The notes: generated by a model not told the origin, from the letters alone. A DNA stretch of 64,000 bases from Puniceicoccaceae bacterium 5H (GCA_009772895.1 WOUP01000003.1:372001-436000); one strand, 5' to 3'. Numbered from the stretch's first letter, positions 28,930 to 46,829 are shown. Numbers and translations are program-made.

Positions 28930-30765
28930 TCACACCGCTGCGAGCTGGCGCTCGAGCTCGCGGTTGAAGGCGATGCGGAGGCGGTGGCGTTCGTCGAAGG
29001 GGGCAAAGGCTGTGTCGAGCGCATTGCGCTGCAGCTGGATGATCTGCGAGCGCGTGATGTCAGGGCAGAGCTTGGCGAGAAAGAGCAGGTTGTCGTTGAG
29101 GCTGGCGGCGCTGATCCCGATGTTGTCGGTATTGACGGTGACCTTGATGCCCGCTTGCAAGTAGCGAAGCAGGGGGTAGTCGTCCGTTTGGCCCGGCATC
29201 GGTCGGAACCCCTTGATCTGGTAATTGGCGTAGGGGCACATCTCCACGCCGATCCCACGCTCGGCAAAGGCCCGCATCAGGTCGCGCGACTGGGTGAGGT
29301 GCAGCGCGTGGCCAATGCGGCGGGCGGAGAGGCGGTAGACGGCCTGCCAGATCGATTCCACGTCATCATTCTCACCTGCGTGGGCGGTCACGGCGAGGCC
29401 GCAGCGGTGCGCGGCATCAAAGTCGTGCTGGAAGTAGAGCGGGCGGGTTTCCTTATTTTCGAAGCCGGCCAGGTCGAGCCCCACCACATTGCAGCACTCG
29501 GAGGCGTAGGTGCGTTGACCAGCGGTGACGGCCAGTGCCACGTGGCGGCTGATGCTCGATAAGTCGCCGGACTGGCGGCGGCTGACGATGATGATCAGAT
29601 TCACCTGGCAACGCTCCCGGGGGTCGCTCTGGGCCATGCATCGCTCGAAGGTGCTCTGGATGTCTTGCAAGACCGACCAGGCATCGCGGTCGCGCGCATA
29701 GTTGTTGGGCGAGCAGCGCACCTCGGCGTAGCGGACCTTCGTTGCGACAAAGTGGGCGTAAAGGCCTTCGATTTGCGCCCGCAGGCAACCGGCATCGCTC
29801 AGGAGAGAAGACCCGTTCGCATCACCCAGCCGCATGTAGGTGTCGAGCGGGCAGGGCTGGTGCGGGCGCGGCCAGCCCTCCGGAGGAAGAGGCACACTCG
29901 CGGTCACGCCAGGCAGGTGGGGGGAGGTCGCAGCGGCACGCACCCGCTCCAGTTCGGGGCCGTGAGTGGCAAAGCCGCCCAGGTGGCAATGCAGCTCCAC
30001 CTTGGGCAGGGCGGCGATCCAGGCGGCATCGGCCGAAGGATCCAAGGGGGCTTCGAGCCAGCGCTGCTGGGACGCGTTGGCCAGCAGCAGGGCGGGGAAG
30101 GCCCGATCGGCCAGCGACTCGCGTTGTTGCCACAGGGCGTCAGTTGCCTCCGCACGCTGGCGCAAATAGTCCGACAATGCGCGGTCGCTGACACTGACGG
30201 TCCGGGCCGGAGGCTCCGTCGAGATGATGTCGAGCGGGAAATCGTTGGGCCTCAGGGCCGCCACCATGGGGCGAGCAGCGCGGGGGCCGAGCGTCACAAA
30301 GTCCAGTCGGCCATCCAGTGCCGCTTGGTGGGCCGCCGCGGGCTCGCGCGGCTCCTCTCCTTCGCGCACCAGGACGTGGTAAAGATCTGCTGCCCCAAAA
30401 GTCTCCGCTGCCTGTTGCAGGGCCGCTGTCATGGTCTTGCGCCCACCGCTCATGCACACCCAAAGCGGGGCCGCCACCGTATGCTGCAGCTCCAGATACC
30501 AACGCATCAACGCCTCGGTATAGCCGGCATGGTCGGCGGCGCTGCGCACGTCTTGCAGGCCTTCCAGCCGCGTCTGATAAAACGGTATCTCCAGTTGCTG
30601 CTCCACATACTGCCGCACCTCATCCAGCCCGTTGACTTGCCCCGACAACGTGAAGCAGTAAAGCGCTGCCGGGCGAGGGCCATCGGCCATGCGAAAGAGC
30701 GCTTCGATTAACACGACCGGAGAGGCGCCCACTGACGCGAGCAAGACTGGCTGTGCAGCATCCAT
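28930..30765 (-). CDS. cad1: CARF-adenosine deaminase fusion (Cad1-type CRISPR effector)
   Basis: A 611-residue protein with two parts. Residues about 5-185 form a CARF domain (VLLASVGASPVVLIEALF; ligand-loop SGGRKT at 106-111). Residues about 250-611 are an adenosine/AMP deaminase-type TIM barrel. Its metal site is visible: H259-C-H261, H462 in HAGE (with general acid E465), H486 in RIGHAL, and D547 in NTDN. Cad1 enzymes are known to be switched on by cyclic oligoadenylate from Cas10 and to deaminate ATP to ITP, halting growth of infected cells. The usual deaminase TDD motif reads TDN here. The gene follows array 1, separated by a terminator. The start could also be GTG at 30768 or 30825. 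Confidence 0.92.
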   Translation of the reverse strand: MDAAQPVLLASVGASPVVLIEALFRMADGPRPAALYCFTLSGQVNGLDEVRQYVEQQLEIPFYQTRLEGLQDVRSAADHAGYTEALMRWYLELQHTVAAPLWVCMSGGRKTMTAALQQAAETFGAADLYHVLVREGEEPREPAAAHQAALDGRLDFVTLGPRAARPMVAALRPNDFPLDIISTEPPARTVSVSDRALSDYLRQRAEATDALWQQRESLADRAFPALLLANASQQRWLEAPLDPSADAAWIAALPKVELHCHLGGFATHGPELERVRAAATSPHLPGVTASVPLPPEGWPRPHQPCPLDTYMRLGDANGSSLLSDAGCLRAQIEGLYAHFVATKVRYAEVRCSPNNYARDRDAWSVLQDIQSTFERCMAQSDPRERCQVNLIIIVSRRQSGDLSSISRHVALAVTAGQRTYASECCNVVGLDLAGFENKETRPLYFQHDFDAAHRCGLAVTAHAGENDDVESIWQAVYRLSARRIGHALHLTQSRDLMRAFAERGIGVEMCPYANYQIKGFRPMPGQTDDYPLLRYLQAGIKVTVNTDNIGISAASLNDNLLFLAKLCPDITRSQIIQLQRNALDTAFAPFDERHRLRIAFNRELERQLAAV

Positions 30766-30778
30766 CACGTTTGCATCA

Positions 30779-30792
30779 TGGGGCGAAGCCCA
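30779..30792 (-). promoter_or_regulatory. small hairpin just upstream of the cad1 start
   Basis: On the minus strand GGGCTTCGCCC forms a tight stem-loop ending about 14 bases before the ATG at 30765. No clear Shine-Dalgarno is seen between it and the start. It could dampen translation, or it may lie inside the coding region if the upstream GTG is used. Confidence 0.35.
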
Positions 30793-30826
30793 CGCCGTCG
30801 GCAAGTCATGACTGAGGGCGTACACT

Positions 30827-30908: not shown

Positions 30909-32954
30909 CCAGCTGTTGCCTGTCGGCAGATGGGTCCTTTCGGACAGCTGAGCCCGCACACCCTGTCTGTCCACTCGCAAATCACGTCACCAATGCCTGT
31001 CGGCAGATGAGTCCTTTCGGACGGCGTATGCCCTACCCAATGGGTTGACATCCCAGCCGAGTCACCAATGCCTGTCGGCAGATGAGTCCTTTCGGACTTC
31101 AACATCAACAATGCCATGTCGTTCTTCCACAAGACCAAGTCACCAATGCCTGTCGGCAGATGAGTCCTTTCGGACTCGTCAGCGCTATGAAGATCTGGGG
31201 ATTTTTCCCCGTCACCAATGCCTGTCGGCAGATGAGTCCTTTCGGACCGATTCCGCTAATTCAAGCTCTATATCCGAGCAAAGTCACCAATGCCTGTCGG
31301 CAGATGAGTCCTTTCGGACGCCTAACGACCGTGGGTTCCAGCGATTTTGGTGCGCTGTCACCAATGCCTGTCGGCAGATGAGTCCTTTCGGACCGCGATT
31401 GAAAACGCCGAAACCATTTGCAGTGAATATCTTGTCACCAATGCCTGTCGGCAGATGAGTCCTTTCGGACAATCAACCCTAAGGGTCAATTTATTGTCGG
31501 AGAAAAATGTCACCAATGCCTGTCGGCAGATGAGTCCTTTCGGACGGGCCAGCCCAGCAACCGCATCGAGCACATCCGCTCGTCACCAATGCCTGTCGGC
31601 AGATGAGTCCTTTCGGACTCAAGTTTAACTTTTATCAGCATCTTGAAAATCTTATCCGTCACCAATGCCTGTCGGCAGATGAGTCCTTTCGGACCTTACG
31701 TCATTGTTAACGGCAATGGAGACCAGCAAGTCACCAATGCCTGTCGGCAGATGAGTCCTTTCGGACAGTGCAGGTTAAAGGGTATGGCGTTATTACCCGT
31801 GCTCAAGTCACCAATGCCTGTCGGCAGATGAGTCCTTTCGGACAATCCCTGCAACGACCTTTAAGATTAGCTTTTTCAGCAGTCACCAATGCCTGTCGGC
31901 AGATGAGTCCTTTCGGACGCTTGGCCGTATCGGCCTGCCCGGCGGTAAGGTTGACGTCACCAATGCCTGTCGGCAGATGAGTCCTTTCGGACGAAGGGGG
32001 AAATTGACGCCCTTGGCGAGGGCGAGAAAGCGTCACCAATGCCTGTCGGCAGATGAGTCCTTTCGGACGGGCGACCGCCCCGCCTACTCGCCGAGAGAGG
32101 TTCTGTCACCAATGCCTGTCGGCAGATGAGTCCTTTCGGACGTGAATTCACCGCCTACCACGGCATCAGCACCAGTCACCAATGCCTGTCGGCAGATGAG
32201 TCCTTTCGGACCCATTGAGTTCAAAGAAGAACCACGTTGGCCATACAAGTCACCAATGCCTGTCGGCAGATGAGTCCTTTCGGACACTTGACACCAGTCG
32301 GAACATCGTCAACCGCGACGTCACCAATGCCTGTCGGCAGATGAGTCCTTTCGGACCATTTCAACCGCCTGAAAATAGCTTTGCGTGAATGCGTCACCAA
32401 TGCCTGTCGGCAGATGAGTCCTTTCGGACTTATGACGCTGAAACGGCGCATGATACTGCCTTTGAATCGTCACCAATGCCTGTCGGCAGATGAGTCCTTT
32501 CGGACCTTGCAAATAAGGATAAATGGGTTTTCGCGTAAGTTGTCGTCACCAATGCCTGTCGGCAGATGAGTCCTTTCGGACGAAAATGGCGACCTTTTGG
32601 CCGCCACCACGCGCGCCGTCACCAATGCCTGTCGGCAGATGAGTCCTTTCGGACTTAGTTTACGCCGAGTTTCATCCAGATATTTATCATTAATGTCACC
32701 AATGCCTGTCGGCAGATGAGTCCTTTCGGACATATCATGGAATTCAACTTTATCCGCCCCGAAGATCGTCACCAATGCCTGTCGGCAGATGAGTCCTTTC
32801 GGACAGTATGTTGGGCATGATTGATCTCCTAGAACAAGGAGATCGTCACCAATGCCTGTCGGCAGATGAGTCCTTTCGGACTCTCATGCGAAAATACACC
32901 AATGGAAATGTAACTGTGTCACCAATGCCTGTCGGCAGATGAGTCCTTTCGGAC
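30909..32954 (-). CRISPR. CRISPR array 1: 27 full repeats plus one decayed, 37-bp repeat
   Basis: The 37-bp repeat, read on the minus strand, begins GTCCGAAAGGAC (a 4-bp stem with GAAA loop), has the core CTGCCGAC and ends ATTGGTGAC. Twenty-seven copies run from 30986 to 32954 with essentially no variation. A worn copy at 30909-30945 forms the left end. Spacers are about 33-40 bases. The decayed copy at the left, the terminator beyond it and the leader homology at the right all show that transcription and new-spacer addition start from the right. Repeats differ from array 2 at 2 of 37 positions. Confidence 0.97.
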
Positions 32955-33140
32955 TGCGGCTATGTAAGTCTTTGGCAATGAGGGTGGCAAGTCGTGAATG
33001 TGTCGGCAGGACTGAAAATGCCCACCTGACGCGGAACGTTTTGCTGGCGAGGGACGGCTGATGGTCGTGTAAGGTTTTGATGTCAAGGAACATGGGGAAT
33101 GCGTCGGCAGACGGGCGTTTGGCGGGGTTTTGGGCTGCCG
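32955..33140 (-). promoter_or_regulatory. leader of CRISPR array 1
   Basis: The 186 bases between the TIGR02710-type gene stop and the first repeat are homologous to the leader of array 2. The last 59 bases match at 32 positions without gaps, including the end C-T-T-n-C-A-T-n-n-C-C-G-C. The octamer CTGCCGAC, which is the repeat core, occurs 71 and 172 bases from the same octamer in the first repeat, exactly as in array 2. Confidence 0.75.
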
Positions 33141-34349
33141 TCACATGTGCAGGCCCCGGACCAGCTGGAGGCGTCGGCAGGCCGGCTGCATGACCCAGGG
33201 CTGGGCGTCCAGCTCCTGGCAAAGGTGCTGTAGCGCCCCTTGGACTTCTTCGATTTCAGCCGGCACGGTTCCATGCCCAAAGACGGTCTGGTTGCGGGCC
33301 TCGATCAACGTGCGGAAAGCGTAATGTCCAAAGTAGGCCTCCGCCAACGGCAGCTTCAGCAGCCTGAGGATCTCCCAGATTTCGCGTAGCCCCAGGTGCA
33401 GCTTGCCATCTCGGGCCAGGGCGCGGAAACGTTCGCGCCTGCGTGGCAGCAAATGCGCGAGATCTTCCTCCTGATAAGGCGGCTCGAGCGCGTACGCTTC
33501 CTTGAGTGCCAGTTTGCCGGCCAGTTCGGTCGATCGGTAGAGATAGGCCAGCGCTTCTTCCACTCGATTCCAATGGAGCAGGGTAGCACAGGCGTCGAGC
33601 AAGTCGGCCAATATGGCAGGATCCAGTTCCGGCGCCTGCCGTAGTCCTGAGAGCCACCGGCGCAACGCGGTAAAGGAGGCCATCTCTGGTCTTGCCGCGC
33701 ACTGGCAGGCCGTGCCGTAGTTCAGTCGCTGCCACTCATGCAGCACCTGAGCGAGCGTCTGTATCTGGTCGATCGTCGGATCTTGCCGATCACGCCAAGG
33801 CTTGAGGATTTCCGCCGCGCCGTGAAAGGCTCCTGCCGCCAGTAGCCGCCGCGCCTCTTTTGCGGCCTGCTCGGCGTAAAACTGTGAGGTGTCGAGCTTC
33901 TGGATCTGTTCTTCGCCGGTAATGACTACGCCATTTTCGCGCGGGCCGGTGATGAACACGATTTCATCGGCCTCTGCATCAAGCGCCGCCATCGTGGCCG
34001 CAGCACTCATTTGCTTGGTGCCGCTGGTCGGGTTGACCACCATAGGCTCTCGGCGATTTGCCTCGCGGCGGATCCGCTGTAATGCCTGCTCGAGGTCCAG
34101 GCGGCACTGCTGCAGATCGTCATGATCTTCGAAGGTGAAAAAGCGCGCCTCTGCGGCTGCAGGCTGGAAGCGCGCGCTCACCCGTTCATCTTCGGACACC
34201 AGCTCGGCCAACGCCACGGAGTCCGGATGCGCACTCGGCATCAGAAAAAAGCAGCGCGGCTCCATTAACTGGATCGATCGGATCAAGCCCTCCGCAAGGT
34301 TTGAGCGCGATCCAGCCGTGCCTGTTCCAACTGTCAAGAGTAGTTGCAT
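33141..34349 (-). CDS. CARF-HEPN RNase of the Csm6/Csx1 type (TIGR02710 family)
   Basis: A 402-residue protein. Residues 1-150 form a CARF domain with LLLTVGTGTAGSRSNLAEGL at the start and the ligand-loop NPTSGTKQM at 106-114. The C-terminal part is helical and holds a HEPN active site, R352-x6-H359, in RNQTVFGH. The pattern fits the TIGR02710 CRISPR-associated family, whose relatives are RNases activated by cyclic oligoadenylate. It is the last gene of the cmr operon, with 10 bases between its start and the cmr1 stop. Its stop codon abuts the array 1 leader. The HEPN spacing (six residues) is within the known range. Confidence 0.85.
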   Translation of the reverse strand: MQLLLTVGTGTAGSRSNLAEGLIRSIQLMEPRCFFLMPSAHPDSVALAELVSEDERVSARFQPAAAEARFFTFEDHDDLQQCRLDLEQALQRIRREANRREPMVVNPTSGTKQMSAAATMAALDAEADEIVFITGPRENGVVITGEEQIQKLDTSQFYAEQAAKEARRLLAAGAFHGAAEILKPWRDRQDPTIDQIQTLAQVLHEWQRLNYGTACQCAARPEMASFTALRRWLSGLRQAPELDPAILADLLDACATLLHWNRVEEALAYLYRSTELAGKLALKEAYALEPPYQEEDLAHLLPRRRERFRALARDGKLHLGLREIWEILRLLKLPLAEAYFGHYAFRTLIEARNQTVFGHGTVPAEIEEVQGALQHLCQELDAQPWVMQPACRRLQLVRGLHM

Positions 34350-34359
34350 GGTGGTTAGG

Positions 34360-35214
34360 TTATGATGGTGAGACCCAGCTCATATTGTTGAGAATCTCTC
34401 CGATGGATTTCGGTTGGTAATGCTTTCGGTGACAGTCGATTGCAGCCTGTATGTTTTGATTCGTGACTCCCGTCACTTTGGGGCGGCAATCGACCACGGC
34501 TACGATTCTAAAATCGTTGTCATGCAATTTCGTAACCCGAAGTTTTAGCGGAGATGAGCGGCGGCCGGGATGGATGCAGCCGAATACTTTTCCTACGACG
34601 GGGATGTTGTTGCCATCCAACGTGTCGGATATCGCACATCTTGCCTTTTCTGCCGATGGGAAGAACGCTTTAGAGATTCCGTAGCGCAATTGGCTTTGTG
34701 AACCTACGACGTTCGCCATCATTTGATACCATTCCTCTGTAGTCCGAGGGGATTGATCGAGGCAGCGCAGGGAGCCGCCTCCTCGATTGGCGCGAGTGCC
34801 GAGCGCTCCAGCCAGTAACCAACAATTGAGGGAACGCTCCAGGAGCTGGCGTTGTTTCTCCTCAAGCTGCCGTCGTTCAAACACATGAACCTTGAACTTA
34901 GTCCCGGCAGGAACGGAGGCTGCGAATGCTTTTTTTTGCTTATGATGGGGCAGGCGTGGCTTGTCGATTGGTTCGAAGTTAGGTGTTTCTACTCTGATGA
35001 CAATGCTGCTAGTTCGTTCGACCGATGATTCCTGCCCGGTAAGCTTAATGCCGCCGAATATGGCACGCTCTTGCTCAAAGCTTCCTCCCAAAAGGCGAAA
35101 CCACTGATGAAGTTGCCCCCGAATAGATGCGGCCCGAATCTCCGGCTGGTTCTGATCCGCTCCGTAGCTGAAGATCGGCGTTACTGCTTCTACGTGATGG
35201 ACTCTGTTGTTCAT
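34360..35214 (-). CDS. cmr1: type III-B RAMP protein Cmr1
   Basis: A 284-residue RAMP protein. VTPIFSYGADQNQPEIRAAS followed by IRGQLHQWFRLLGG is the typical Cmr1 N-terminus, and NRGGGSLRCLD near residue 146 gives the Gly-rich loop. Cmr1 caps the Cmr complex at the 3' end of the crRNA and helps select target RNA. It overlaps the stop of cmr6 by four bases (ATGA). It is somewhat short for Cmr1 but contains both RAMP half-motifs. Confidence 0.85.
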   Translation of the reverse strand: MNNRVHHVEAVTPIFSYGADQNQPEIRAASIRGQLHQWFRLLGGSFEQERAIFGGIKLTGQESSVERTSSIVIRVETPNFEPIDKPRLPHHKQKKAFAASVPAGTKFKVHVFERRQLEEKQRQLLERSLNCWLLAGALGTRANRGGGSLRCLDQSPRTTEEWYQMMANVVGSQSQLRYGISKAFFPSAEKARCAISDTLDGNNIPVVGKVFGCIHPGRRSSPLKLRVTKLHDNDFRIVAVVDCRPKVTGVTNQNIQAAIDCHRKHYQPKSIGEILNNMSWVSPS

Positions 35215-36551
35215 GGCAGCTCCACGTTAAGAGTTCGGGCAACTTCTTCGACCGGGTTAAGAATTGCGGCTTTTTTCCGCTTCCGCCATGTCTTCAGTTT
35301 GGATTTGAAGGTTCCTTGCAATAGCCTCAGGTAGGCCGTTTGCTCTTCCACAGATTTTTCCTTCAACTCCTTTCCGAAGTCGGCGAAGGTAGGGTCGTCG
35401 AGCGCACTGATCTCTTCTGTGGCACGCTCAATGGGATCCATTTTTTCCAACCTCTCCTGTTCTCGACGAGCGGCTTCTTCTTTAATGGCTTTCTCCTTGG
35501 CGATTTTGGCCTCCTCCCTCTGTCTTTCTTCGAGCTCACGCTGAATTCTCTCACTGCAATCTATCACTTCCCTAAACCACCCATACCCGGCACCTGTTTT
35601 GGCGCCGACACCATAGACAGTGAGCGCTTGGATCAGCCAATCACGTGCTGCGCTCAGCAACTCACTGCTGTTGGCTCTCTGTTGGCCCACTGGGTTGAGC
35701 ACGAGACAGAAACCGAATTTCGCACCTGCCGCTACCACTGGGAAGTAGTTGGGGCGGGGGTTCTCTTCTCGAAGACTCCGAGGGTCCCCCGCTTTGTTGT
35801 GATTGTCCCCCGTGTAATAGACGGGCGTGTGCACATTGGTGATGTCGACTTCCAAGTGAGCCGCACCCACCGAGTATGCCGGCAGGAACGTCACCGCCCC
35901 CTGCAAATCCGCAGGCATATCTTTGGGGTTGAGGTGCTTCCAGGCCGCGAGCTCGCCGCCTTTCTCGAAGATGTCTGAGGTATAACCAAAGACACGACAG
36001 AATCTCTCCATAAGGCTCGCTTTGTCCGCATCCGGCGCGGCGTGCAGTTCTGCCAACGCCGCGTGGCGAGTGATGCCCTTCACCGCGCTTCCCGGGATAA
36101 AAGGCTGGCCAAAGGTCCGATCGAGACAGATGCCACCGTTTTCAATCACGCCGTCGCTCAGGTTGATCGCCATCCGGGACTTCAGCTCGCCTTCCAGCAC
36201 GCAGGCACCATGGCCATAGCTTTTCTGCACAAGGGCCATCAAGGTTTGCGTGTGGCGCCGTCGGGTTTCTTGCAGAAGGCCAATAGAAGCTTTTGTGGAT
36301 TGAATTTGGGAGAGGACAGTAGAATGTAAATAGTTGCCCTTCGCCTTCGCCAAGTCGGAAGCCAGAGCCTGATGCCCATGTCGGGAGGTTCGTAGCAGTG
36401 ACCACCGGCTAGCATGATTCAGTTTACCCTGCCACTCGGTCGACTGTTTGGGGACCACAAACTTGTCGAGGAGCAGCGATGCATTTTCCACCTCTGAAGC
36501 ACCTGGTCCGATTGCTTCTCTCAGGTCGGCGGTCATAGGTATCGGGTTCAT
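35211..36551 (-). CDS. cmr6: type III-B RAMP protein Cmr6, with long N- and C-terminal extensions
   Basis: A 446-residue protein, well above the usual 230-340. The RAMP core spans about residues 110-335: GHGACVLEGELKSRMAINLS, PFIPGSAVKGITRHAAL, and the Gly-rich GVGAKTGAGYGWF near residue 325. Residues 1-105 are an added helical region. Residues about 340-446 are highly charged and probably a coiled coil (RELEERQREEAKIAKEKA) ending in a basic helix. Cmr6 sits next to Cmr1 in the complex and touches the 3' part of the crRNA. It overlaps cmr5 and cmr1 by four bases each. Confidence 0.9.
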   Translation of the reverse strand: MNPIPMTADLREAIGPGASEVENASLLLDKFVVPKQSTEWQGKLNHASRWSLLRTSRHGHQALASDLAKAKGNYLHSTVLSQIQSTKASIGLLQETRRRHTQTLMALVQKSYGHGACVLEGELKSRMAINLSDGVIENGGICLDRTFGQPFIPGSAVKGITRHAALAELHAAPDADKASLMERFCRVFGYTSDIFEKGGELAAWKHLNPKDMPADLQGAVTFLPAYSVGAAHLEVDITNVHTPVYYTGDNHNKAGDPRSLREENPRPNYFPVVAAGAKFGFCLVLNPVGQQRANSSELLSAARDWLIQALTVYGVGAKTGAGYGWFREVIDCSERIQRELEERQREEAKIAKEKAIKEEAARREQERLEKMDPIERATEEISALDDPTFADFGKELKEKSVEEQTAYLRLLQGTFKSKLKTWRKRKKAAILNPVEEVARTLNVELP

Positions 36552-36922
36552 GCGCCAGCTTTCTCGTCTTTCGATTTGATGAAGCGGCGGGCGTAGTTGA
36601 GCCAGGCCATCGCTTCGTTTGTGGCCGCCCGGAGGCGATCACTGTCCGCATCCTGGGAAAGGAATCGGAGCATTCCCTCCGCAGTGCTTGCCGTGCTAGG
36701 CAAGATACCTACGTCAGGGTCGGAGAGATGTTGGGCCAGTGCATTAAAAGCAGCCTGCCAGCCCTCGCCCTTTTCAAACCCGAAGGCAGCCGCTGCAAGA
36801 AGTCCGTGGTTCATGACCAAAGGCGGAATCTTTTTGATAACTTCGCCGCCGTTCTGGCCTTTAACCTGGATGGATGATGCCTTCAGTGCATTCCGGGCGC
36901 GAATTTGGTCGAGATTCTTCAC
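36548..36922 (-). CDS. cmr5: type III-B small subunit Cmr5
   Basis: A 124-residue all-helical protein. It starts MKNLDQIRARNALKASS, and the IPPLVMNHGLLAAAAFGFEKG segment is typical of Cmr5. Cmr5 forms the inner filament of the Cmr complex, contacting Cmr4 subunits and Cas10. It overlaps both neighbours by four bases, so translation is coupled through cmr4-cmr5-cmr6-cmr1. The C-terminal ARRFIKSKDEKAGA is basic, as in other members. Confidence 0.92.
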   Translation of the reverse strand: MKNLDQIRARNALKASSIQVKGQNGGEVIKKIPPLVMNHGLLAAAAFGFEKGEGWQAAFNALAQHLSDPDVGILPSTASTAEGMLRFLSQDADSDRLRAATNEAMAWLNYARRFIKSKDEKAGA

Positions 36923-37770
36923 GCCGCACCTCCTGCGCGCTGAAGCTTGGAAGTCACAAAGCCAAGGCCGGCGGTATTATTGCCGCCCAGTTGTAAGAGT
37001 CGCTCCTGCTCAAGCTTCGCGCAAAAGGCGTCGAGATGGGGCCGGTCTTGCTCCTCCTTGAGCGGCAATAAAGTCACGCTGCTATAGAAGAGAGCTTCTG
37101 CCGGCACCGTTTCTTCATTGAAGAGGGCTCTAGGCTTCGCTGTTCCCGTTTCGTGGTTGATCGCGACGTGCTGGCTCACTTGGCAGGCGTTCATGGCGAA
37201 GTGTGCAAAATCACCGTCCGTCAGCAGGACAAAGCGCCCCTTGGCTTCCTGCAGCACGGCGTCGTTGAGCAGGCCCGAGAGGTGCGTGGCCCAGTCCGTC
37301 GGGAATTCGCCTTCGCTCTGGAAGACATATTCTTCGAGGGCCACTTTTCCGCCATTGAGTTGCACGGAGGGCCCCGCCAGGCAACAAGAGTCATTTGTCG
37401 GGCCTGAGATGCGCGGGAGGTCTAGGCCGGCGTCTCGCAGGTAACGGTTCAATGCGAGAGGGCAGGTGGCCAAGGCAAAGCCGCCTTTGGCTGAGCGAAG
37501 CGGGAAGAGCAGCAGCTTACCTTCTGCAAATGCAACGATGCCCGAGCGCGAATCGCCATTGTCATCTGCTTTGCCAAACAGCACGGTCGCACTGTCTTCG
37601 TTTTGTGGTTGCTCGGCTGCACGCAGGACGCCCTTAAGGCTGCTTCCCGGTATAATGGGAAACCCAGTATGGCGTTCGCGCTGAATCGGCTGATCGATTG
37701 CTCCGACGGAGCTCCCCGCGCCGATGTGCAGCGGGGTCCGCGTAAAAAGATAGAGAAGGTGCGTTTCCAT
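36919..37770 (-). CDS. cmr4: type III-B backbone RNase Cmr4
   Basis: A 283-residue Cas7-like RAMP. HIGAGSSVGAIDQPIQRERH places the catalytic aspartate at D26, the position known to cut target RNA at 6-base steps. GFPIIPGSSLKGVLR follows, and the C-terminal LGGNNTAGLGFV is the Gly-rich loop. Several copies of Cmr4 build the filament along the crRNA. The intact aspartate predicts active target-RNA cleavage. It is cotranscribed in the cmr operon, starting 10 bases after the cmr3 stop. Confidence 0.94.
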   Translation of the reverse strand: METHLLYLFTRTPLHIGAGSSVGAIDQPIQRERHTGFPIIPGSSLKGVLRAAEQPQNEDSATVLFGKADDNGDSRSGIVAFAEGKLLLFPLRSAKGGFALATCPLALNRYLRDAGLDLPRISGPTNDSCCLAGPSVQLNGGKVALEEYVFQSEGEFPTDWATHLSGLLNDAVLQEAKGRFVLLTDGDFAHFAMNACQVSQHVAINHETGTAKPRALFNEETVPAEALFYSSVTLLPLKEEQDRPHLDAFCAKLEQERLLQLGGNNTAGLGFVTSKLQRAGGAA

Positions 37771-37780
37771 ATAAAACAGG

Positions 37781-39064
37781 TTAGATGTTCAATTCCTCAA
37801 AGTTTTGCCACGTGGTGCACACGCCGAGGCCAAAGCCTTTCTCGCCGAGCAGCCCAGAACGTAGGTTGAGAATTTCGCCGCCCGCAGGTTTCAGTCCGTG
37901 CCAGTTCAAGACACTGACCAGCCTTTGGGCGTCGTCTTCTGATTCGGCCTCGAAGTAGTAAACGGACCCGGCGGGGACCGCTAGGAGGGTTGAGCGGGCG
38001 CCGTGTCTTCCCGACTGACCATCCGATTGAGCCCAACCGCTGACGATCTGGGGGCGGTTGATGGCGGCGGCTACCAGTCGGGCCCGGATCTCTCTTGGCG
38101 CTGCAATGCTCTTTCCCTGGGCGCGCAGTCGTCGCGCTTTGCCGGCACCGGGTCCGTCGACCAGTTTGACCTGCAGCGTTCCGTCTTCCTCCCTCACCCA
38201 GTTGGGCAGCCAGCCCCCCGGATGGCGATTACCGGTGCGCACGGCCTGGAATATGGCCGGTGTCAGCAAGATCCACTTGATCCGGCGGCCGTGACATTTT
38301 GGAGCGCTTGGCAGAGGAAGTTGGGATACAGTGCGGCGCTCGACGGTGCAGACACGCGACTCTCCGCCAAGACGTATTTTGCCTGCACTGGGAAATACCT
38401 CTTCCAGAAAATCCGCTGAATGAGAGCCAACCATGGGAAGTTGAGCGAGGGCGCCTAGACGGGCCGTTTCTCGCAAACGCATTTGAGCCCGCGAGTATAT
38501 CTTTCCTTCCTCTGTCGCGTTGGTGTCACTATCCAGCCCGATCCCAATCGTATGCTCCGCCTCGAAAAAGCGAGAGTCCGTTGGCCGCTCGAGCTTTCGG
38601 TCTTCCTGCCGGAGATACGCTTCGTACTCTTGCTGCGATAGCCATTGAGGCGCCGGATCCTTGCTCGGGGGAATGCGACTGCCCAAGGGAAGAAGTCCAC
38701 TCTTGAGGCTCGTGATCCCCGCGAGCGTTCCCGCTGGTGCGATTGACGCCTGAGTGGATAGTGTCTTCAGGTCTGCCGGCGCTGGAAAGAACCACTGCGA
38801 TTCGTTGCCGCTCGTCTCCACTGGAAACGGACCCACGCTAAATAGGGCGCCGAATTTTTCTTCCTGCACTGAGATCCTCTTGCCCCTGCGGCGGTGGACG
38901 GGGGGATTATTGCTAGGAGATACCCGGTGACAGGCCGCATGCAAGGCACTGTTGAGCGTAGTGGGAAGAGGCCATCGGTCTCCGTGCCCCATAAAAGAGC
39001 CTGTCATGGGGCGGCTGTCCTTGAAGAACAGCACATCATCGGGTCGAAATGTCAGTATTTGCAT
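37781..39064 (-). CDS. cmr3: type III-B RAMP protein Cmr3
   Basis: A 427-residue Cas5-like protein. FRPDDVLFFKDSRPM at residues 5-20 is the Cmr3 signature. The C-terminal GEKGFGLGVCTTW carries the Gly-rich loop. Cmr3 binds the 5' tag of the crRNA and docks Cas10. The start was set at the ATG at 39064, two bases after the cas10 stop. An upstream extension in frame is Arg-rich and overlaps cas10, so it was not used. Confidence 0.9.
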   Translation of the reverse strand: MQILTFRPDDVLFFKDSRPMTGSFMGHGDRWPLPTTLNSALHAACHRVSPSNNPPVHRRRGKRISVQEEKFGALFSVGPFPVETSGNESQWFFPAPADLKTLSTQASIAPAGTLAGITSLKSGLLPLGSRIPPSKDPAPQWLSQQEYEAYLRQEDRKLERPTDSRFFEAEHTIGIGLDSDTNATEEGKIYSRAQMRLRETARLGALAQLPMVGSHSADFLEEVFPSAGKIRLGGESRVCTVERRTVSQLPLPSAPKCHGRRIKWILLTPAIFQAVRTGNRHPGGWLPNWVREEDGTLQVKLVDGPGAGKARRLRAQGKSIAAPREIRARLVAAAINRPQIVSGWAQSDGQSGRHGARSTLLAVPAGSVYYFEAESEDDAQRLVSVLNWHGLKPAGGEILNLRSGLLGEKGFGLGVCTTWQNFEELNI

Positions 39065-39066
39065 GA

Positions 39067-41823
39067 TTACTCGTCTCCTTTCTCGCCTTTGTCCAACCAG
39101 GCGATAGTCTGCATCAGTCCTACTAGATCTCGAATTGCTTCGCTGGCGCTCGCGCCGCATACGGTCACTTGATTCCAGTAAGCATCGAAGAGCTCTCGAA
39201 GTGAGCCCACGCAATCTTTGGGATAGCGTTGGCGGCTCAGGATCTCTGTAATGTCTTTCCAGACTATTTCCTGCGCCATACTCACGAACGCGCTATCTAC
39301 GTTTCTGTCCTGATTCAGGCTGCTCCGCCTTACCGTATAGGCTTCGAGTACCGCAACCGTCGCATAAGGGAAGCGGGCTGAGAGGCTCGAGGCCTTTCGG
39401 TCGATTATCAGGCGCTGAAGAAAGTCGAATGCGGCACTACGACCTTCTTCATTCCAGCGAAGCCCCCATTCAATTGTTTCGCCGGAGCGCTTAAAGATGG
39501 AAATGGCATCAGCGGAGCGTCCAAGCCCGCCCTTTGCTCTGTCTGCCTTCGCTCGTTTTTCGGCCTTCTGGGCGGCGCGTACGAGATCTTGAAGAGGCGA
39601 TTTTACGTGGCCAATTGCGATCCCGCTCGAGACGGTTGCCGCTGGGCCTGGCACCACTGCATAGTAGGAAACGGGCCCCGCAGTGAAGTCATCTTGTTTG
39701 TCCAACGAAAAGGCTTTTCGTAGATCCTCGTGGAGGCGGATAAAGCCTTCTGGCGCTTCTCCGTCAAAGATTTGCACTTCGTCATAGCGCTCGTCTTTCA
39801 GCCAAACCCCACGCAGTTCAGCTAACGTCTTGTTGTCGCCGCGGAAGCCCGCACGGAGGTATCGAGCACAGGCAAGTGCCTTTTGTGCCGGCAAGATGGC
39901 CAAGACGTCATCCCCACCAGAGTAGATGAGACGCCCATTATGTGCTTCCACGATTAGGCGGGTCGTGAAGAGGCTGAAGTTGCCGAGTGCTTCGGAAAAC
40001 TGGAGGTGGTAAGACGGGCTGAGGGGGCGTGCTCCAGCGAAGAAGGTTTTCACATCGAAATCTTCCGTTTTCGCCGCCATCTCACTTTCGAAATACTTCA
40101 CTGCGTCCGGCGCTAGGCGGGAGCCAATGTGAGGGGCCTTTTCGCCCGAGAGCCACTTGCCGATCTGGTCGCCGTCGAGCGCGATGACCGCGTAGTAGCC
40201 CGACTCACGAGTGGAATCGCCCTTTGCAAACGGCTCCCCGCGTGCAAGCTCTGACAAGTCCGGCATGCTGAAGTCGAGGCAGTCTCCAGGGAAATGAGAG
40301 TCGAGCTCATCTTTTAGATAAGCATCGTGCCAGAAACGTTTGATCAGTGTGGACGCGCCCAGGATGTCGCCTTCCTTTAGCAAGTGCCGGTTTACTCTAG
40401 AGGCTTTCTCAATCAGCTTGATGACCTCCGGACTTGCGCGCAGGACCAGCTCTTCCTTGCCGTTGAGGCTATCCTTGTTCTGATCTGTGCCATACGACCA
40501 AGCGGAAGCGTCGTTCCAGGCATCAAAGGTGCGGCACTGCTTGGTGGCATCGAGGCCCCAGGAGCACAGCGCGTAGAGTAGAGGCCAAGCGGTTGCGGCG
40601 TGCTTCATCCCGTATGTGGTCTGGTGACCTGCGGGTATGCTTTCCCACATTTTGGCGATGTTCTCGACTGAAGCGTAGGCTGGGGGTTGCTCGCCGCGTT
40701 TTCGGGGAAGGAATTTGAGGGCGATGCCTTCTGCTTCTTTGAGTGTTTGAGGGATCGGCAGCGCATACCACTGCGTTTCGAGCATTCCTTTCAATTGGGC
40801 ATGGACACGATCCGGATAATAATCGCGTGATCGAGCCTCCAGGCCGGGGATCTTTCGCTGAAGCCAGTCGAGGACTGACTCACCAATTTCTCGAAGCGTC
40901 TGCCGCAGCACATCTCGGCACTTCCCGGCAATGCGCTCGCTTTGGTCCGCCGGGACCAAGGCCAGGAAGCGATTCGGCAGGCTGGGGAGCGTCAGGCGAG
41001 CACGCGAGAGAGGAGTCGTATACATGTTGCTGCTCATCGGATCTGCATCCGGTCCCAACTTGGTGTACGCTTGATCATAGACCGCCTTCTTTAAGGCGAG
41101 ATCGATCAAAGGCTGACCAAGCAGGTTGGGAAAAATGACGTGGTCTGGGCCCAGCTCGTTCGCGATGATACCCAAGGCCTTGGAGGCGAGAAAGCTGAGC
41201 AAATACGAACCGCTCCACAAGTCACGCAAGTTACGTGAGGCAGCGATGAAGGCCTGAACGGGTCCGATGCTGAACATCAGTAGCCCTGCCTGACCGTTCT
41301 TGTCACGCTCCATGCAGCCTTGGAAGGCCGAGGTCAGCGAAAGGTGATTCCATATCGTATGATCCGGAATCCGCGTGTCTGCGGGCAGGAAGGCCAAGTC
41401 CGGATTGTGCTCGGCAGCCCATTCCTTCCAAAACCGCCAACGTGCGATAAACTCCGCCCGGTCGTTCTTCTCGGTTAACACCGGAGCGGTGGTGGAAGAC
41501 ACCTCGTGGGCGGCAGAAACTCCACCCTTAAGCTTCTTGTGAGGATAGGAGACTCCTGCGCTCAAGGGATGTAAAAAGCTGTTCGTACCGTCCCCAAAGT
41601 TTGCCTTCATGTGGCGGTGGTCCGGGAAGGGGATGCGGTCCGCAGCAGCGGCAGCGAAGTCGGCGCCTTTTTCGAACTGCTCGTCTTGCGAAATGAGCAG
41701 CGAGCGCTCAAGGAGCCCGGCTAGCTGGACATGCTGCTTAACATCCAGTGCCTTTTCAGGTGGATCGTGCAGATAGGCGCTCAGTTTCTTGCGCCAGTAG
41801 GTGGAGTCTGGTTCTATAGACAT
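39067..41823 (-). CDS. cas10: Cas10/Cmr2, cyclic oligoadenylate synthase and HD nuclease
   Basis: A 918-residue protein, the signature subunit of the type III complex. The N-terminal HD domain is seen as LHDPPEKAL (H19-D20). The palm domains include LMFSIGPVQAFI near residue 182 and the cyclase motif GGDD at 636-639 (YSGGDDVLA). An intact GGDD predicts synthesis of cyclic oligoadenylate from ATP when target RNA is bound; the HD domain may cut single-stranded DNA. The ATG at 41823 (MSIEPDSTYW) fits the family N-terminus. The gene lies 14 bases after the NE0113-type CARF gene and two bases before cmr3. Confidence 0.95.
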   Translation of the reverse strand: MSIEPDSTYWRKKLSAYLHDPPEKALDVKQHVQLAGLLERSLLISQDEQFEKGADFAAAAADRIPFPDHRHMKANFGDGTNSFLHPLSAGVSYPHKKLKGGVSAAHEVSSTTAPVLTEKNDRAEFIARWRFWKEWAAEHNPDLAFLPADTRIPDHTIWNHLSLTSAFQGCMERDKNGQAGLLMFSIGPVQAFIAASRNLRDLWSGSYLLSFLASKALGIIANELGPDHVIFPNLLGQPLIDLALKKAVYDQAYTKLGPDADPMSSNMYTTPLSRARLTLPSLPNRFLALVPADQSERIAGKCRDVLRQTLREIGESVLDWLQRKIPGLEARSRDYYPDRVHAQLKGMLETQWYALPIPQTLKEAEGIALKFLPRKRGEQPPAYASVENIAKMWESIPAGHQTTYGMKHAATAWPLLYALCSWGLDATKQCRTFDAWNDASAWSYGTDQNKDSLNGKEELVLRASPEVIKLIEKASRVNRHLLKEGDILGASTLIKRFWHDAYLKDELDSHFPGDCLDFSMPDLSELARGEPFAKGDSTRESGYYAVIALDGDQIGKWLSGEKAPHIGSRLAPDAVKYFESEMAAKTEDFDVKTFFAGARPLSPSYHLQFSEALGNFSLFTTRLIVEAHNGRLIYSGGDDVLAILPAQKALACARYLRAGFRGDNKTLAELRGVWLKDERYDEVQIFDGEAPEGFIRLHEDLRKAFSLDKQDDFTAGPVSYYAVVPGPAATVSSGIAIGHVKSPLQDLVRAAQKAEKRAKADRAKGGLGRSADAISIFKRSGETIEWGLRWNEEGRSAAFDFLQRLIIDRKASSLSARFPYATVAVLEAYTVRRSSLNQDRNVDSAFVSMAQEIVWKDITEILSRQRYPKDCVGSLRELFDAYWNQVTVCGASASEAIRDLVGLMQTIAWLDKGEKGDE

Positions 41824-41837
41824 GTTGGCCTGTCGGC

Positions 41838-42968
41838 TTACGGGGTGAATGAAATGTTCTCGGGCGACACCTCGATGGAGATTCGGCCGCGCTGTGGTAC
41901 GAGACGTTGGATGTCCAGTGTGCTGAAGCCTTCGTTCTTGAGACGTTGGCGGATATCTGCCGCCCATTTTCGGAACTGCTCCTTGGGGTCGAGTTCCGCT
42001 TCAAGCACAGCGTGCGACCAGTGAGCAAAATCGTCTGGCTCCAGATACTGCCGTGCCAGCTTGCCAAGCTCTGGAGCTAGATCCAGATACTGCTCCAGGG
42101 GCCCGGTGTTTAGCGCCGCGCGTTTGGCTAGAGCAGCGTAAAAGGCGAAGGGAGCTGGAGGAAGACGCAGCATGGCGTGATTGATCCTCAGTTCTCCACG
42201 CTTCAGGTCGATATTCAGTTCGAGCTCGGAATCGACGTCCAGTGCTCGATTCCGGACAACTTTTACTAAGCTATCATAGCGATTTGCCGCTCGCTTCACT
42301 TCATCAGTGAACAGGTAGCGCAGCGGTACAAAAGGAACGTCGGCCAACGTTAATCGGGCATCGCGACTGTCCAGGCGTCTTGCCGTGAGGGGGCACTGGA
42401 AGGACCCGGGGCAGCTTGGGAAATAGAATTGTGGCAACCGCTCCCAAGGCTCGTCTACCAGGACGTGGACGATGCGGTCGCCAAACCCACCCACCAGGGA
42501 CATGATGCCCACCAAGAGGGCGCCCATACTCTTCCGGCCACCAGCGATGGAGGCGATGATACGATTTCTGCCATCGTCCGACAGACTGCGAACCAGCTGC
42601 AGCATGAAGTCTGCCGCTGCTTCGTTGTCTGCCGCCGTCTGGATGTCCGTCAGGTCGCGCTGTTGGTCGGCTGAGGGAATGACGCGGATGCAGGCTTCAG
42701 CGGGGCCGAACTGGGGAATCTTGATGTGCGCTCCGTAGATGCGCCGCAGCTCGTGGACCAACATAGACCAACCGCCGCCGGTGAAAAGCGCATCGCCAAG
42801 GCGCTTTTTGCCAGTCGTCGTGGTGACGACCACGATGCGGTCCGGGATGTCGGGTTCGCTTTCCGCATAGAGGCCGAATACCGTTTCCGTCAGCACCGCG
42901 GGTGATAATCCAATCAGTGCCACGAGGATGGATTCTTCGGATGAAGCTGATGACGCAGGTGAAGACAT
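41838..42968 (-). CDS. CARF protein of the NE0113/TIGR02584 type
   Basis: A 376-residue protein. Residues about 14-185 form a CARF domain (ILVALIGLSPAVLTETVFGLY; ligand-loop SIAGGRKSMG at 140-149), the same subfamily as the CARF part of Cad1 in this locus. Beyond residue 230 the chain is helical, with a winged-helix-like stretch near 270-300 (LRINHAMLRLPPAPFAF). No HEPN R-x4-6-H or PD-D/E-x-K site was found. Members are annotated as CRISPR-associated ring nucleases or Csm6-like proteins. Here it could degrade cyclic oligoadenylate or act as a cOA-sensing regulator. It is the first gene of the cmr operon. Confidence 0.8.
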   Translation of the reverse strand: MSSPASSASSEESILVALIGLSPAVLTETVFGLYAESEPDIPDRIVVVTTTTGKKRLGDALFTGGGWSMLVHELRRIYGAHIKIPQFGPAEACIRVIPSADQQRDLTDIQTAADNEAAADFMLQLVRSLSDDGRNRIIASIAGGRKSMGALLVGIMSLVGGFGDRIVHVLVDEPWERLPQFYFPSCPGSFQCPLTARRLDSRDARLTLADVPFVPLRYLFTDEVKRAANRYDSLVKVVRNRALDVDSELELNIDLKRGELRINHAMLRLPPAPFAFYAALAKRAALNTGPLEQYLDLAPELGKLARQYLEPDDFAHWSHAVLEAELDPKEQFRKWAADIRQRLKNEGFSTLDIQRLVPQRGRISIEVSPENISFTP

Positions 42969-43012
42969 CGGAGCAAAGGATAGCACACACCCTGAAGACA
43001 TTTGGGGTTGGT

Positions 43013-43192: not shown

Positions 43193-44197
43193 ATGCCTGT
43201 CGCATATTTAACTTTGCCTGGTATGGTCGCTTCCGTTCGAGGCGAGAGAATTGAGCTGAAGTTTCCACCTGAGGCGAACGGGACGGTGCCCGAGCAGCCG
43301 TGGATTCCGTTGCTTGATGTCGAACACGTGGTGGTGGATGCGAGCGTGCGCTTGAGCTCGAGCAGCATCGCCAGGCTCCTGTACCGAGGCATTCCCATTG
43401 TCTTCCTGGCGCAAGGCCAATTCCCGGCCGGGATCGCCGCCCCTTTTTCCCGGCAGCATCTCTGTCTCGTCCAACAACTCGATGCGGTGCGCGATCCCGG
43501 GTTGCGCCTCGGCTGGGCGAAGGCAATAGTCGACCACAAAATCCGCAACATGCGGCGCGTCTTGCAGCGTCTTTCCAGTAACCGGGGCCAGTCAACCCAC
43601 GCGTCGAGCTGGCTCGGGGCAATGGCGAATCAAGCCAGGGCGGCCGCCAGCATGGATTCGTTGCGGGGCATCGAGGGCGCAGCCTCCGGGCGCTATTTTG
43701 AATGCCTCAGCGAGTTCTTTCCCGCTGGGGTACCGTTTGAGCGTCGGTCGCGCCGGCCTCCACAGAACGCCGCCAACGCGCTGCTTTCATTCCTCTACAC
43801 GCTTTTGAGCAGCGAGGTAGCGCTCCACCTGCGGGCAGCCGGCTTGGAAGTGGGGTGGGGGTGTTACCACGAGGCCGAGAACGGACGTCCGGCGTTGGCG
43901 CTCGACTTGATGGAGCCCTTCCGGGCTCCGGTGGCCGATGCCCTGGCGCTCGATCTGTTGAATCACGGGCGGCTGACGGCGGAGGACTTCGAGCCCGGGG
44001 AGGAAGGCGGCATCATGTTGAAGCGGATCAGTCGTCGCAAAGTATTCGCTGCCTGGGAGGAGCGCCTCCAGCGTCAATTCCTCTATCGGGCAACAGGCAC
44101 CCGCTCTTCGCTGCGCGCTCTGATGATCGAGCAAGCGGCTGGGATTAAAAAGGCGTTCCAGCTCAGGGAGGCCTTCAAACCCTTTCTCATGAACTAG
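43193..44197 (+). CDS. cas1: CRISPR-associated endonuclease Cas1
   Basis: A 334-residue integrase. The metal ligands expected for Cas1 are seen: E161 in GIEGAASGRYF, H226 in GCYHEAENGRPALALDLME, and the acidic pair D238/E241. With Cas2 it inserts new spacers at the leader end of the array. It is transcribed away from the cmr operon and directly before cas2 and array 2. The N-terminal beta-sheet domain (1-80) is complete. No reverse transcriptase or cas4 is linked. Confidence 0.96.
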   Translation: MPVAYLTLPGMVASVRGERIELKFPPEANGTVPEQPWIPLLDVEHVVVDASVRLSSSSIARLLYRGIPIVFLAQGQFPAGIAAPFSRQHLCLVQQLDAVRDPGLRLGWAKAIVDHKIRNMRRVLQRLSSNRGQSTHASSWLGAMANQARAAASMDSLRGIEGAASGRYFECLSEFFPAGVPFERRSRRPPQNAANALLSFLYTLLSSEVALHLRAAGLEVGWGCYHEAENGRPALALDLMEPFRAPVADALALDLLNHGRLTAEDFEPGEEGGIMLKRISRRKVFAAWEERLQRQFLYRATGTRSSLRALMIEQAAGIKKAFQLREAFKPFLMN

Positions 44198-44313
44198 CTC
44201 AAGTGGCCGAAGCTGAACATACCTCCGGTTGGCGAGCAGGTTGGTGGGAAGAGGCCTTCCCGCGTACCCTGAACGCCAGCGAGGTGCGAGGTCATGGCCG
44301 CGGAAATCCCGCT

Positions 44314-44589
44314 ATGCTTGTTATCATCGCCTACGATGTCGCTGATCCCAAGCGGCTGAAACAGATTGCCGACTGTTGCAAGGACTTCGGCTATCGCGTC
44401 CAATACAGCATCTTCGAATGCCGTCTGGAGGCTGGTCAGATGGAGCGCCTCTGGACGCGACTGTGCGCGTTGGCCGATCCCGATGAGGATCGGCTGGTGG
44501 CGTATCCCATCCACGGAAGCTATTGCCAATACGTGCGCACCTATGGGGCCATGTCGACGATCGATGCTGTCGTCAGCTATCAGTTTTAA
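44314..44589 (+). CDS. cas2: CRISPR-associated protein Cas2
   Basis: A 91-residue ferredoxin-like protein starting MLVIIAYDVADPKR, with the conserved aspartate (D8) and the QYSIFECRL strand. It forms the core of the Cas1-Cas2 integrase. A GTG at 44203, six bases after the cas1 stop, would add 37 residues that do not belong to the family; the internal ATG is therefore used. The stop codon abuts the array 2 leader. Confidence 0.94.
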   Translation: MLVIIAYDVADPKRLKQIADCCKDFGYRVQYSIFECRLEAGQMERLWTRLCALADPDEDRLVAYPIHGSYCQYVRTYGAMSTIDAVVSYQF

Positions 44590-44789
44590 CCCGGTAAGTG
44601 TGTCGGCTGCCAAAAACCTCCCAAAACGAGGGGCTGCCGACGCAATTTGTAAGTCTTTGCATATGAGTGAATTGTTGTCTTTTTGTGCGCTAGATCGCAT
44701 CGCGAAAGCGGCCTCACCATGGTGTATTTTGTGCCTGCCGACGCACCTTGACTTTGGGCCACTGATGTACAAGATCTTCCATCACCGCG
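44590..44789 (+). promoter_or_regulatory. leader of CRISPR array 2
   Basis: Two hundred bases separate cas2 from the first repeat. CTGCCGAC, the repeat core, stands at 44634-44641 and 44735-44742, which is 101 and 71 bases apart from the next copy and from the first repeat, as in the leader of array 1. The first copy has an inverted partner, GTCGGCTGCC at 44602-44611, across an A/C-rich loop; array 1 has a similar arrangement. TTTTTGTG and AT-rich stretches lie between. Confidence 0.75.
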
Positions 44790-45344
44790 GTCCGAAAGGA
44801 CACATCTGCCGACAGGCATTGGAGACGCGGTCAACTGCTCGATCACTGAGGCGCGGCCCGCGTGTCCGAAAGGACACATCTGCCGACAGGCATTGGAGAC
44901 AATTGCGACGATACAAAGATGCCGCAAAGCTCCCAACGTTCGTCCGAAAGGACACATCTGCCGACAGGCATTGGAGACATGGGGGGTGAGGTTTTTGATT
45001 TTCATTTGACTGATTTGGTCCGAAAGGACACATCTGCCGACAGGCATTGGAGACTTCGGGACAAAGCCCGAAAACCCAGAAACCTTCCTCTTCGGTCCGA
45101 AAGGACACATCTGCCGACAGGCATTGGAGACATAACCGCGAAAACTGCAAATGCCTTGTTCATGCTTTCGGTCCGAAAGGACACATCTGCCGACAGGCAT
45201 TGGAGACGCGACGGTTGTTTCGCATTCCTCACTGTATACGGTTTGGTCCGAAAGGACACATCTGCCGACAGGCATTGGAGACCGGGCGATGTGATGCGGC
45301 GGATTGTAGGCTGAGTCAGTGTCCGAAAGGACACATCTGCCGAC
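44790..45344 (+). CRISPR. CRISPR array 2: seven full repeats plus one truncated
   Basis: Repeats of 37 bp start at 44790, 44864, 44942, 45018, 45095, 45171 and 45246. They begin GTCCGAAAGGAC, have the core CTGCCGAC and end ATTGGAGAC. A last copy at 45321 keeps only its first 24 bases and then changes to unrelated sequence. Seven spacers of 37-41 bases lie between. The array follows cas1-cas2 directly and is read on the plus strand, opposite to array 1. Its repeat differs from array 1 at two positions. Confidence 0.97.
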
Positions 45345-46823: not shown

Positions 46824-46829
46824 TTCGCC

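Follow-up and report, generated by a model that had tools for sequence, protein, structure and literature searches.

A recurrent leader motif as a putative Cas1-Cas2 docking site in a type III-B CRISPR-Cas locus of Puniceicoccaceae bacterium 5H

The leaders of both CRISPR arrays in a type III-B CRISPR-Cas locus of Puniceicoccaceae bacterium 5H contain a short motif, here called M, which, judging from sequence comparison, is probably a docking site for the Cas1-Cas2 integrase in a leader folded by a protein of the IHF/HU type. The core of M would be the octamer CTGCCGAC, which occurs twice in direct orientation, at -55 and -156 from the start of the first repeat, and once inverted, at about -190. 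The same layout recurs with different letters in related leaders and in cyanobacteria, which makes a docking site the most likely explanation and argues against a relic.

The window, i.e., the whole 64,000-nucleotide stretch of DNA that was analyzed (GCA_009772895.1, WOUP01000003.1:372001-436000), holds a type III-B locus in which Cas10/Cmr2 and Cmr1, 3, 4, 5, and 6 are all present. By Cas1, the nearest named relatives are Opitutales MAGs, and the host belongs to the Verrucomicrobiota, close to the Opitutales. The minus strand encodes the Cmr proteins, Cas10/Cmr2, and the CARF proteins, and the plus strand encodes Cas1 and Cas2. The effector operon (34360..43001, minus strand) comprises Cmr1, Cmr6, Cmr5, Cmr4, Cmr3, Cas10/Cmr2, and an NE0113-type CARF protein, while cas1 (43193..44197, plus strand) and cas2 (44203..44589, plus strand) encode separate proteins of 334 and 128 aa, which as Cas1-Cas2 are the proposed reader of M. 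Array 1 (30909..32954, minus strand) has 28 repeats of GTCCGAAAGGACTCATCTGCCGACAGGCATTGGTGAC, with its leader-proximal repeat at 32918-32954; array 2 (44790..45344, plus strand) has seven full repeats of GTCCGAAAGGACACATCTGCCGACAGGCATTGGAGAC and a last, truncated one. The 37-bp repeat is common to both arrays, with two differences between them. Degenerate terminal repeats end both arrays (30909-30945 and 45321-45344), and that of array 2 is cut directly after the CTGCCGAC octamer. A CARF-HEPN gene (33141-34349) adjoins the array 1 leader. Just past the trailer end of array 1, a minus-strand gene (28930-30825) encodes a Cas_NE0113 CARF-like domain fused to an adenosine deaminase domain; its product is a CRISPR-associated adenosine deaminase (Cad1-like), with possible relatives in several related loci. 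The region directly downstream of array 2 (45669-49790, plus strand) encodes a metallophosphoesterase resembling SbcD and an SbcC/SMC-like ATPase. No Cas6 was found in the ORF scan around the arrays, which covered part of the window.

The octamer CTGCCGAC occurs 43 times in the window (3.85 expected), and outside of the arrays and leaders there are only two copies, at 14995 and 47794. In array 1, the octamers start at 32931 (first repeat), 33002, 33103, and 33173 in plus-strand coordinates, with spacings of 71, 101, and 70 bp; in array 2, they start at 44806 (repeat), 44735, and 44634, with spacings of 71 and 101 bp. All of the coordinates behind the shared spacings reported in the first-pass annotation were reproduced, and in both leaders the octamer starts at -55 and -156. 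Proximal and distal M of array 1 (33002..33009, extended form CTGCCGACACA, and 33103..33110, CTGCCGACGCA, both minus strand) are accompanied by an inverted M at about -189 (33135..33143; CTGCCGTCA on the plus strand, TGACGGCAG on the leader strand), 33 bp upstream of distal M and overlapping the stop codon of the CARF-HEPN gene. Proximal and distal M of array 2 (44735..44742 and 44634..44641, both plus strand) each read CTGCCGACGCA, and the inverted M, at about -191 (44599..44607; TGTGTCGGC on the plus strand, GCCGACACA on the minus strand), lies 37 bp upstream of distal M; these distances bear out the inverted partner that had been placed about 30 bases from the distal shared copy. A further array 1 copy, 70 bases out, had also been counted. 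Its position holds (33173..33180, minus strand, -226), but it lies within the CARF-HEPN coding sequence, has no counterpart in the array 2 leader or in relatives, and is probably outside of the element; being coding and unique to one leader, it was ruled out as a member of the set.

The two window leaders are identical at 97/200 positions in register over an ungapped 200 bp, vs. about 50 at other offsets, and as judged by sequence they are diverged homologues (duplicates). Shared ancestry would by itself account for equal spacing in this pair. Constraint within the window is indicated instead by the uneven divergence of the two leaders: the block from -140 to -60 is at background identity (24/80), whereas the motif blocks are retained, with 12/17 positions identical at -157 to -140 and 29/43 further upstream. 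The layout gains its weight from distant leaders, which keep it while the motif letters change.

Such leaders were gathered by Cas1 searches of genomes from the order, the phylum, and several families, and the 27 relatives with a readable leader beside related Cas1-Cas2 genes were combined with the two window leaders into a set of 29. A scan with a three-row Cas1 alignment gave three loci in genome contigs and none in viral contigs. The relatives' repeats have the form N18-GCCGAMAGGC-N9 or a close variant, and Cmr genes are present at many of the loci. In most of the leaders, M lies at about -55 (-53 to -58), followed at 77–115 bp upstream by a direct copy and then, after about 33 bp more, by an inverted one. 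When the cyanobacterial leaders described below are counted in, distances of 90–93 or 100–103 bp predominate between the direct copies. The direct-copy spacing across the 29 leaders is mostly 98–103 bp, with 90–93 bp in one group, 111–115 bp in a few, and 77 bp once. The comparison of related leaders, which the first-pass annotation had proposed, gave a divided answer: the octamer itself is usually not retained, but most leaders have a motif of their own in the same spacing layout. The letters of M vary by lineage, and the copies inside one leader match each other. For instance, leader G287 has CCTGCCGTC at -56 and -158 along with the inverted form, G600 has CTCACGACC/CTCATGACC, the distal one with a perfect inverted copy, and G886 has GTCTGCCGCC at all three places; elsewhere, M reads TCCCGACCT (G872), CAATACC (G437), or GTCCCACGC (G471).

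A direct copy matching at 8/9 positions or better was found in 22/29 leaders (shuffles 2.9, maximum 6) and an inverted copy of the same quality in 19/29 (shuffles 2.1, maximum 5), and proximal and distal M match at 8.07/9 on average. The direct copy falls below 8/9 in seven leaders (G232, G308, G499, G497, G437, G880, and G901), so that the layout there is weaker or uncertain. When a 14-mer from each leader was matched against its own and against the other leaders' upstream regions, probes at -58/-54 scored 8.14 vs. 6.90 for direct copies and 7.83 vs. 6.71 for inverted copies (own vs. others, p 0.0002 for each). Only probes at -58 and -54 gave a large self-excess; some other probe positions gave small p values with differences of about 0.4–0.5, which probably reflect relatedness and overlap with M. 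The spacing of the copies is only loosely helical (mean resultant 0.65–0.76 for periods of 10–11), and as related leaders share spacings, this phasing is suggestive only; strict phasing was rejected on both grounds.

Twelve leaders from cyanobacterial type III loci, which lie on plasmids and encode RT-Cas1-sized fusions of about 670 aa, follow this layout, with letters unrelated to those of the Verrucomicrobiota; several of the 12 are paralogues in one genome, so they represent fewer independent lineages. M is CCCCGCGAAA in Nostoc (-56, -148, inverted -195), CCCCCCCATA in Allocoleopsis (-57, -148, inverted -192), TATCCCACG in Gloeothece (-56 and -147), and ACCCCCAAGA in Pseudanabaena (-59 and -150). 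Copies at 8/9 or better were found in 12/12 leaders for the direct (shuffles 1.4) and 11/12 for the inverted orientation (shuffles 0.8). At -60, self exceeded cross for both (8.75 vs. 6.5 direct; 8.17 vs. 6.47 inverted), and the probe scan has a peak at -60/-54 and is flat elsewhere. Over the Verrucomicrobiota and cyanobacteria together, every recognized proximal M falls between about -53 and -59. Cyanobacterial M is partly like the repeat in some arrays (leaders L122 and L126) and unlike it in others; in Pseudanabaena, the best match of TTACCCCCAAGAA to the repeat TTTACCCCGCAAGG is 7/8. Among RT-Cas1 loci, those examined in Alphaproteobacteria and Actinobacteria (Tistrella, Azospirillum, and Rhodococcus) have no motif above chance. 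The RT-Cas1 locus of Thiodictyon has a candidate motif at -57/-147, and the plasmid loci of Thermus and Rhodothermus, which gave no usable leader, were left out.

These data bear on whether the layout could be due to chance or to passive inheritance by two duplicated leaders. The homology of the window leaders fits the latter, and their equal spacing, which had been taken to exclude chance, proves little by itself. However, passive inheritance does not agree with middle segments that have diverged to background beside motif blocks that were kept, nor chance with a layout that persists in the 41 examined leaders although the letters are unrelated. The self vs. cross tests and the copy counts against shuffles refute both, and we give them practically no credence. 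The distant leaders thus supply what the two homologous ones could not, and the earlier argument from precise spacing to a functional element is supported by recurrence in the Verrucomicrobiota and Cyanobacteriota of unrelated letters that agree within each leader.

The first-pass annotation had made it central that the octamer is identical to the repeat core and had listed fossil repeats among the possible explanations. According to this idea, the leader octamers are degenerate repeats left by array shrinkage, which would suit both their exact match to the repeat core (8/8) and the distance of 71 bp, near one repeat-spacer unit; 101 bp, on the other hand, is no unit length. Beyond the octamer, the agreement of the window leader copies with the repeat amounts to 6, 6, 6, 7, and 10 of 29 positions, where about 7 are expected by chance, and on account of these chance-level flanks fossil repeats were rejected. 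Moreover, M keeps its place yet departs from the repeat in G600 (M CTCATGACC, repeat AAGCCGAAAGG), G287 (M CTGCCGTC, repeat TTGCCGAC), and Nostoc (M CCCCCGCAAA, repeat unrelated). Over the whole set, M matches its own repeat at 5.83/8 and other repeats at 5.69/8, and a narrower core test gave 5.90 vs. 5.65 (p 0.013); there is a weak general resemblance between M and repeat, with GCCGA common to several clades. For the layout as a whole, the fossil explanation is already refuted, and we regard it as very improbable. With M unlike the repeat core in most relatives, the identity of octamer and core is, on these alignments, a local coincidence of a small lineage and incidental to the element.

Sites resembling the IHF consensus (WATCAANNNNTTR, scored at nine positions, with circular shifts as the null) peak in the 29 leaders exactly at -23 on the leader strand, between M and the repeat (mean 5.14/9; null mean 3.45, maximum 4.14), with a second, lesser peak at -128 (mean 4.48/9; null mean 3.56, maximum 4.00). 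When one leader per clade was used, the -23 peak remained above the null maximum (4.68 vs. 4.05), and the -128 value merely equaled it (3.95 for both). Array 1 has TGCCAAAGACTTA at -23 (32965..32977, 7/9) and CATCAAAACCTTA at -128 (33070..33082, 8/9), both on the minus strand; array 2, on the plus strand, has the weak GTACAAGATCTTC at -23 (44767..44779, 5/9) and TATGAGTGAATTG at -128 (44662..44674, 7/9). The -23 site is unrecognizable in about half of the leaders. Four of those without it (G880, G471, G570, and G886) have a minus-strand IHF-like match at -36, which in G570 is AATCAAGGGCTTA (9/9); this match overlaps a TTGAC promoter-like box and is possibly an alternative bend position. The genome encodes two PF00216 proteins, one HU-like and one IHF-like, and the latter scores best to IHF alpha/beta, below the NCBIfam cut-off. 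Cyanobacteria are not known to encode IHF, so HU or another bending protein would be needed there.

We propose that the Cas1-Cas2 integrase docks on M. An IHF/HU-type protein would bend the leader at -23 and so fold proximal M back onto Cas1-Cas2 at the leader-repeat junction, as in the type I-E system of E. coli. With a second bend near -128, distal M and its inverted partner could also reach this complex, which is two-fold symmetric, comparable to the recruitment of upstream motifs in type I-F, and new spacers would thereby be restricted to the leader end of both arrays. We infer that Cas1-Cas2 is the reader from the fixed register of M with the integration site across two phyla, from letters that change together inside a leader, and from Cas1 and Cas2 being the most regularly shared products of the loci; the bending by IHF/HU and the effect on integration are part of the same inference. 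Docking is weakened by the proximal IHF-like site, of which array 2 has only a poor match and about half of the leaders none, and the variation in direct-copy spacing, from 77 to 115 bp, also counts against it. The same is true of the -128 signal with one leader per clade, of the need for a bending protein other than IHF in cyanobacteria, and of the alphaproteobacterial and actinobacterial loci without M.

Multi-motif, IHF-folded leaders are already known for types I-E and I-F. A survey by Santiago-Frangos et al. in Curr Biol in 2021 reportedly found them in some I-C, I-E, I-F, and II-C systems. The freely readable literature that was searched gave no account of such a leader layout for type III. 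Leaders of the I-E and I-F kind have a conserved motif about 50–60 bp before the first repeat, which is where M lies. In type I-E of E. coli, the IHF site spans -9 to -35 and Cas1-Cas2 contacts -50 to -55 (PMC10011333). The window has a comparable upstream element in M at -55 and a candidate IHF site between M and the repeat; it differs in its type III-B Cas1, in the third, inverted copy, in the second IHF-like site near -128, and in its unrelated motif letters. The E. coli K-12 CRISPR-I leader (L121) also contains an exact 12-bp direct duplication, TTAAGGTTGGTG, at -62 and -135, 73 bp apart, the proximal copy of which (-62 to -51) extends into the zone where Cas1-Cas2 is known to make contact. 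In type I-F, the leader is folded by IHF and Cas2 contacts inverted repeat motifs (PMC12259127); the likeness to the window is in having several upstream motifs, including inverted ones, and leaves motif positions and letters aside. Unlike type I-F, the window has Cmr effector genes and no Cas2-Cas3 fusion, and with Cas1 and Cas2 separate its leaders were not assigned to the type I-F class. Type I-A of Sulfolobus has a proximal Cas1 site and a distal Csa3a site, both of which affect adaptation (PMC9456107), but these two sites differ in sequence and bind different proteins, whereas the M copies agree with each other, and Csa3 was not among the matches for the genes tested at the locus. The type II-A leader-anchoring sequence is similar in that leader DNA specifies the integration site; it is found no more than about 10 bp from the junction, whereas M is 45–190 bp away.

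Two further explanations give M a different reader. M might be the operator of a regulator of array transcription, two or three copies of which permit DNA looping, as in lac and gal. Spacings of 77–115 bp, as found between the M copies, fall in the range of looping operators, and many leaders have promoter-like boxes close to M, with M overlapping the promoter spacer in several cyanobacterial ones. Against an operator, M is fixed with respect to the repeat (about -53 to -59, two phyla), while the predicted -10 boxes scatter, with medians of -26 vs. -39 from noisy promoter predictions. The genome has 13 other exact CTGCCGACRCA sites, every one of them within a long ORF and none in the cas promoter region, and a genome-wide regulon of M was rejected on that basis; nor did a non-exhaustive survey of gene content find a regulator gene common to the loci. 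As the promoter boxes are close and a locus-specific regulator is possible, we keep the operator as an unlikely alternative. M could also bind a dedicated host or accessory factor, distinct from Cas1-Cas2, that then recruits the integrase. In S. islandicus, Cas1 is modulated by an accessory factor bound to the distal leader motif (PMC9456107), and three copies, one of them inverted, would suit a small dimeric protein. Against this, the letters change by lineage while Cas1-Cas2 stay commonly shared, and Csa3, as mentioned, did not appear among the matches; an accessory factor of this kind therefore seems improbable.

Little has been worked out about how type III systems direct new spacers to the leader end, and a review of type III adaptation treats the need for a leader and for IHF only broadly, drawing on studies of other types (PMC9048733). 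Two papers on RT-Cas1 biochemistry describe linear targets with 20–49 bp of leader, which would be too short to hold a proximal motif at -55 (PMC11014452; PMC8102632). A target with a 49-bp leader was attacked mainly at the spacer side, and on a plasmid with a 163-bp leader full-site integration occurred mostly at the leader-repeat junction (PMC8102632). Should Cas1-Cas2 indeed dock on M, the identity of M would predict which arrays are served by a given Cas1-Cas2, and spacer-recording tools should carry about 200 bp of leader. More tentatively, and at a little under even chances, the type III Cas1-Cas2 of at least two phyla may use an ancient leader code of three lineage-specific M copies and two bends, the letters diverging in step with Cas1, with the result that an integrase recognizes no arrays but its own. 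If true, type III adaptation would have in this code its first defined element for recognition of the integration site.
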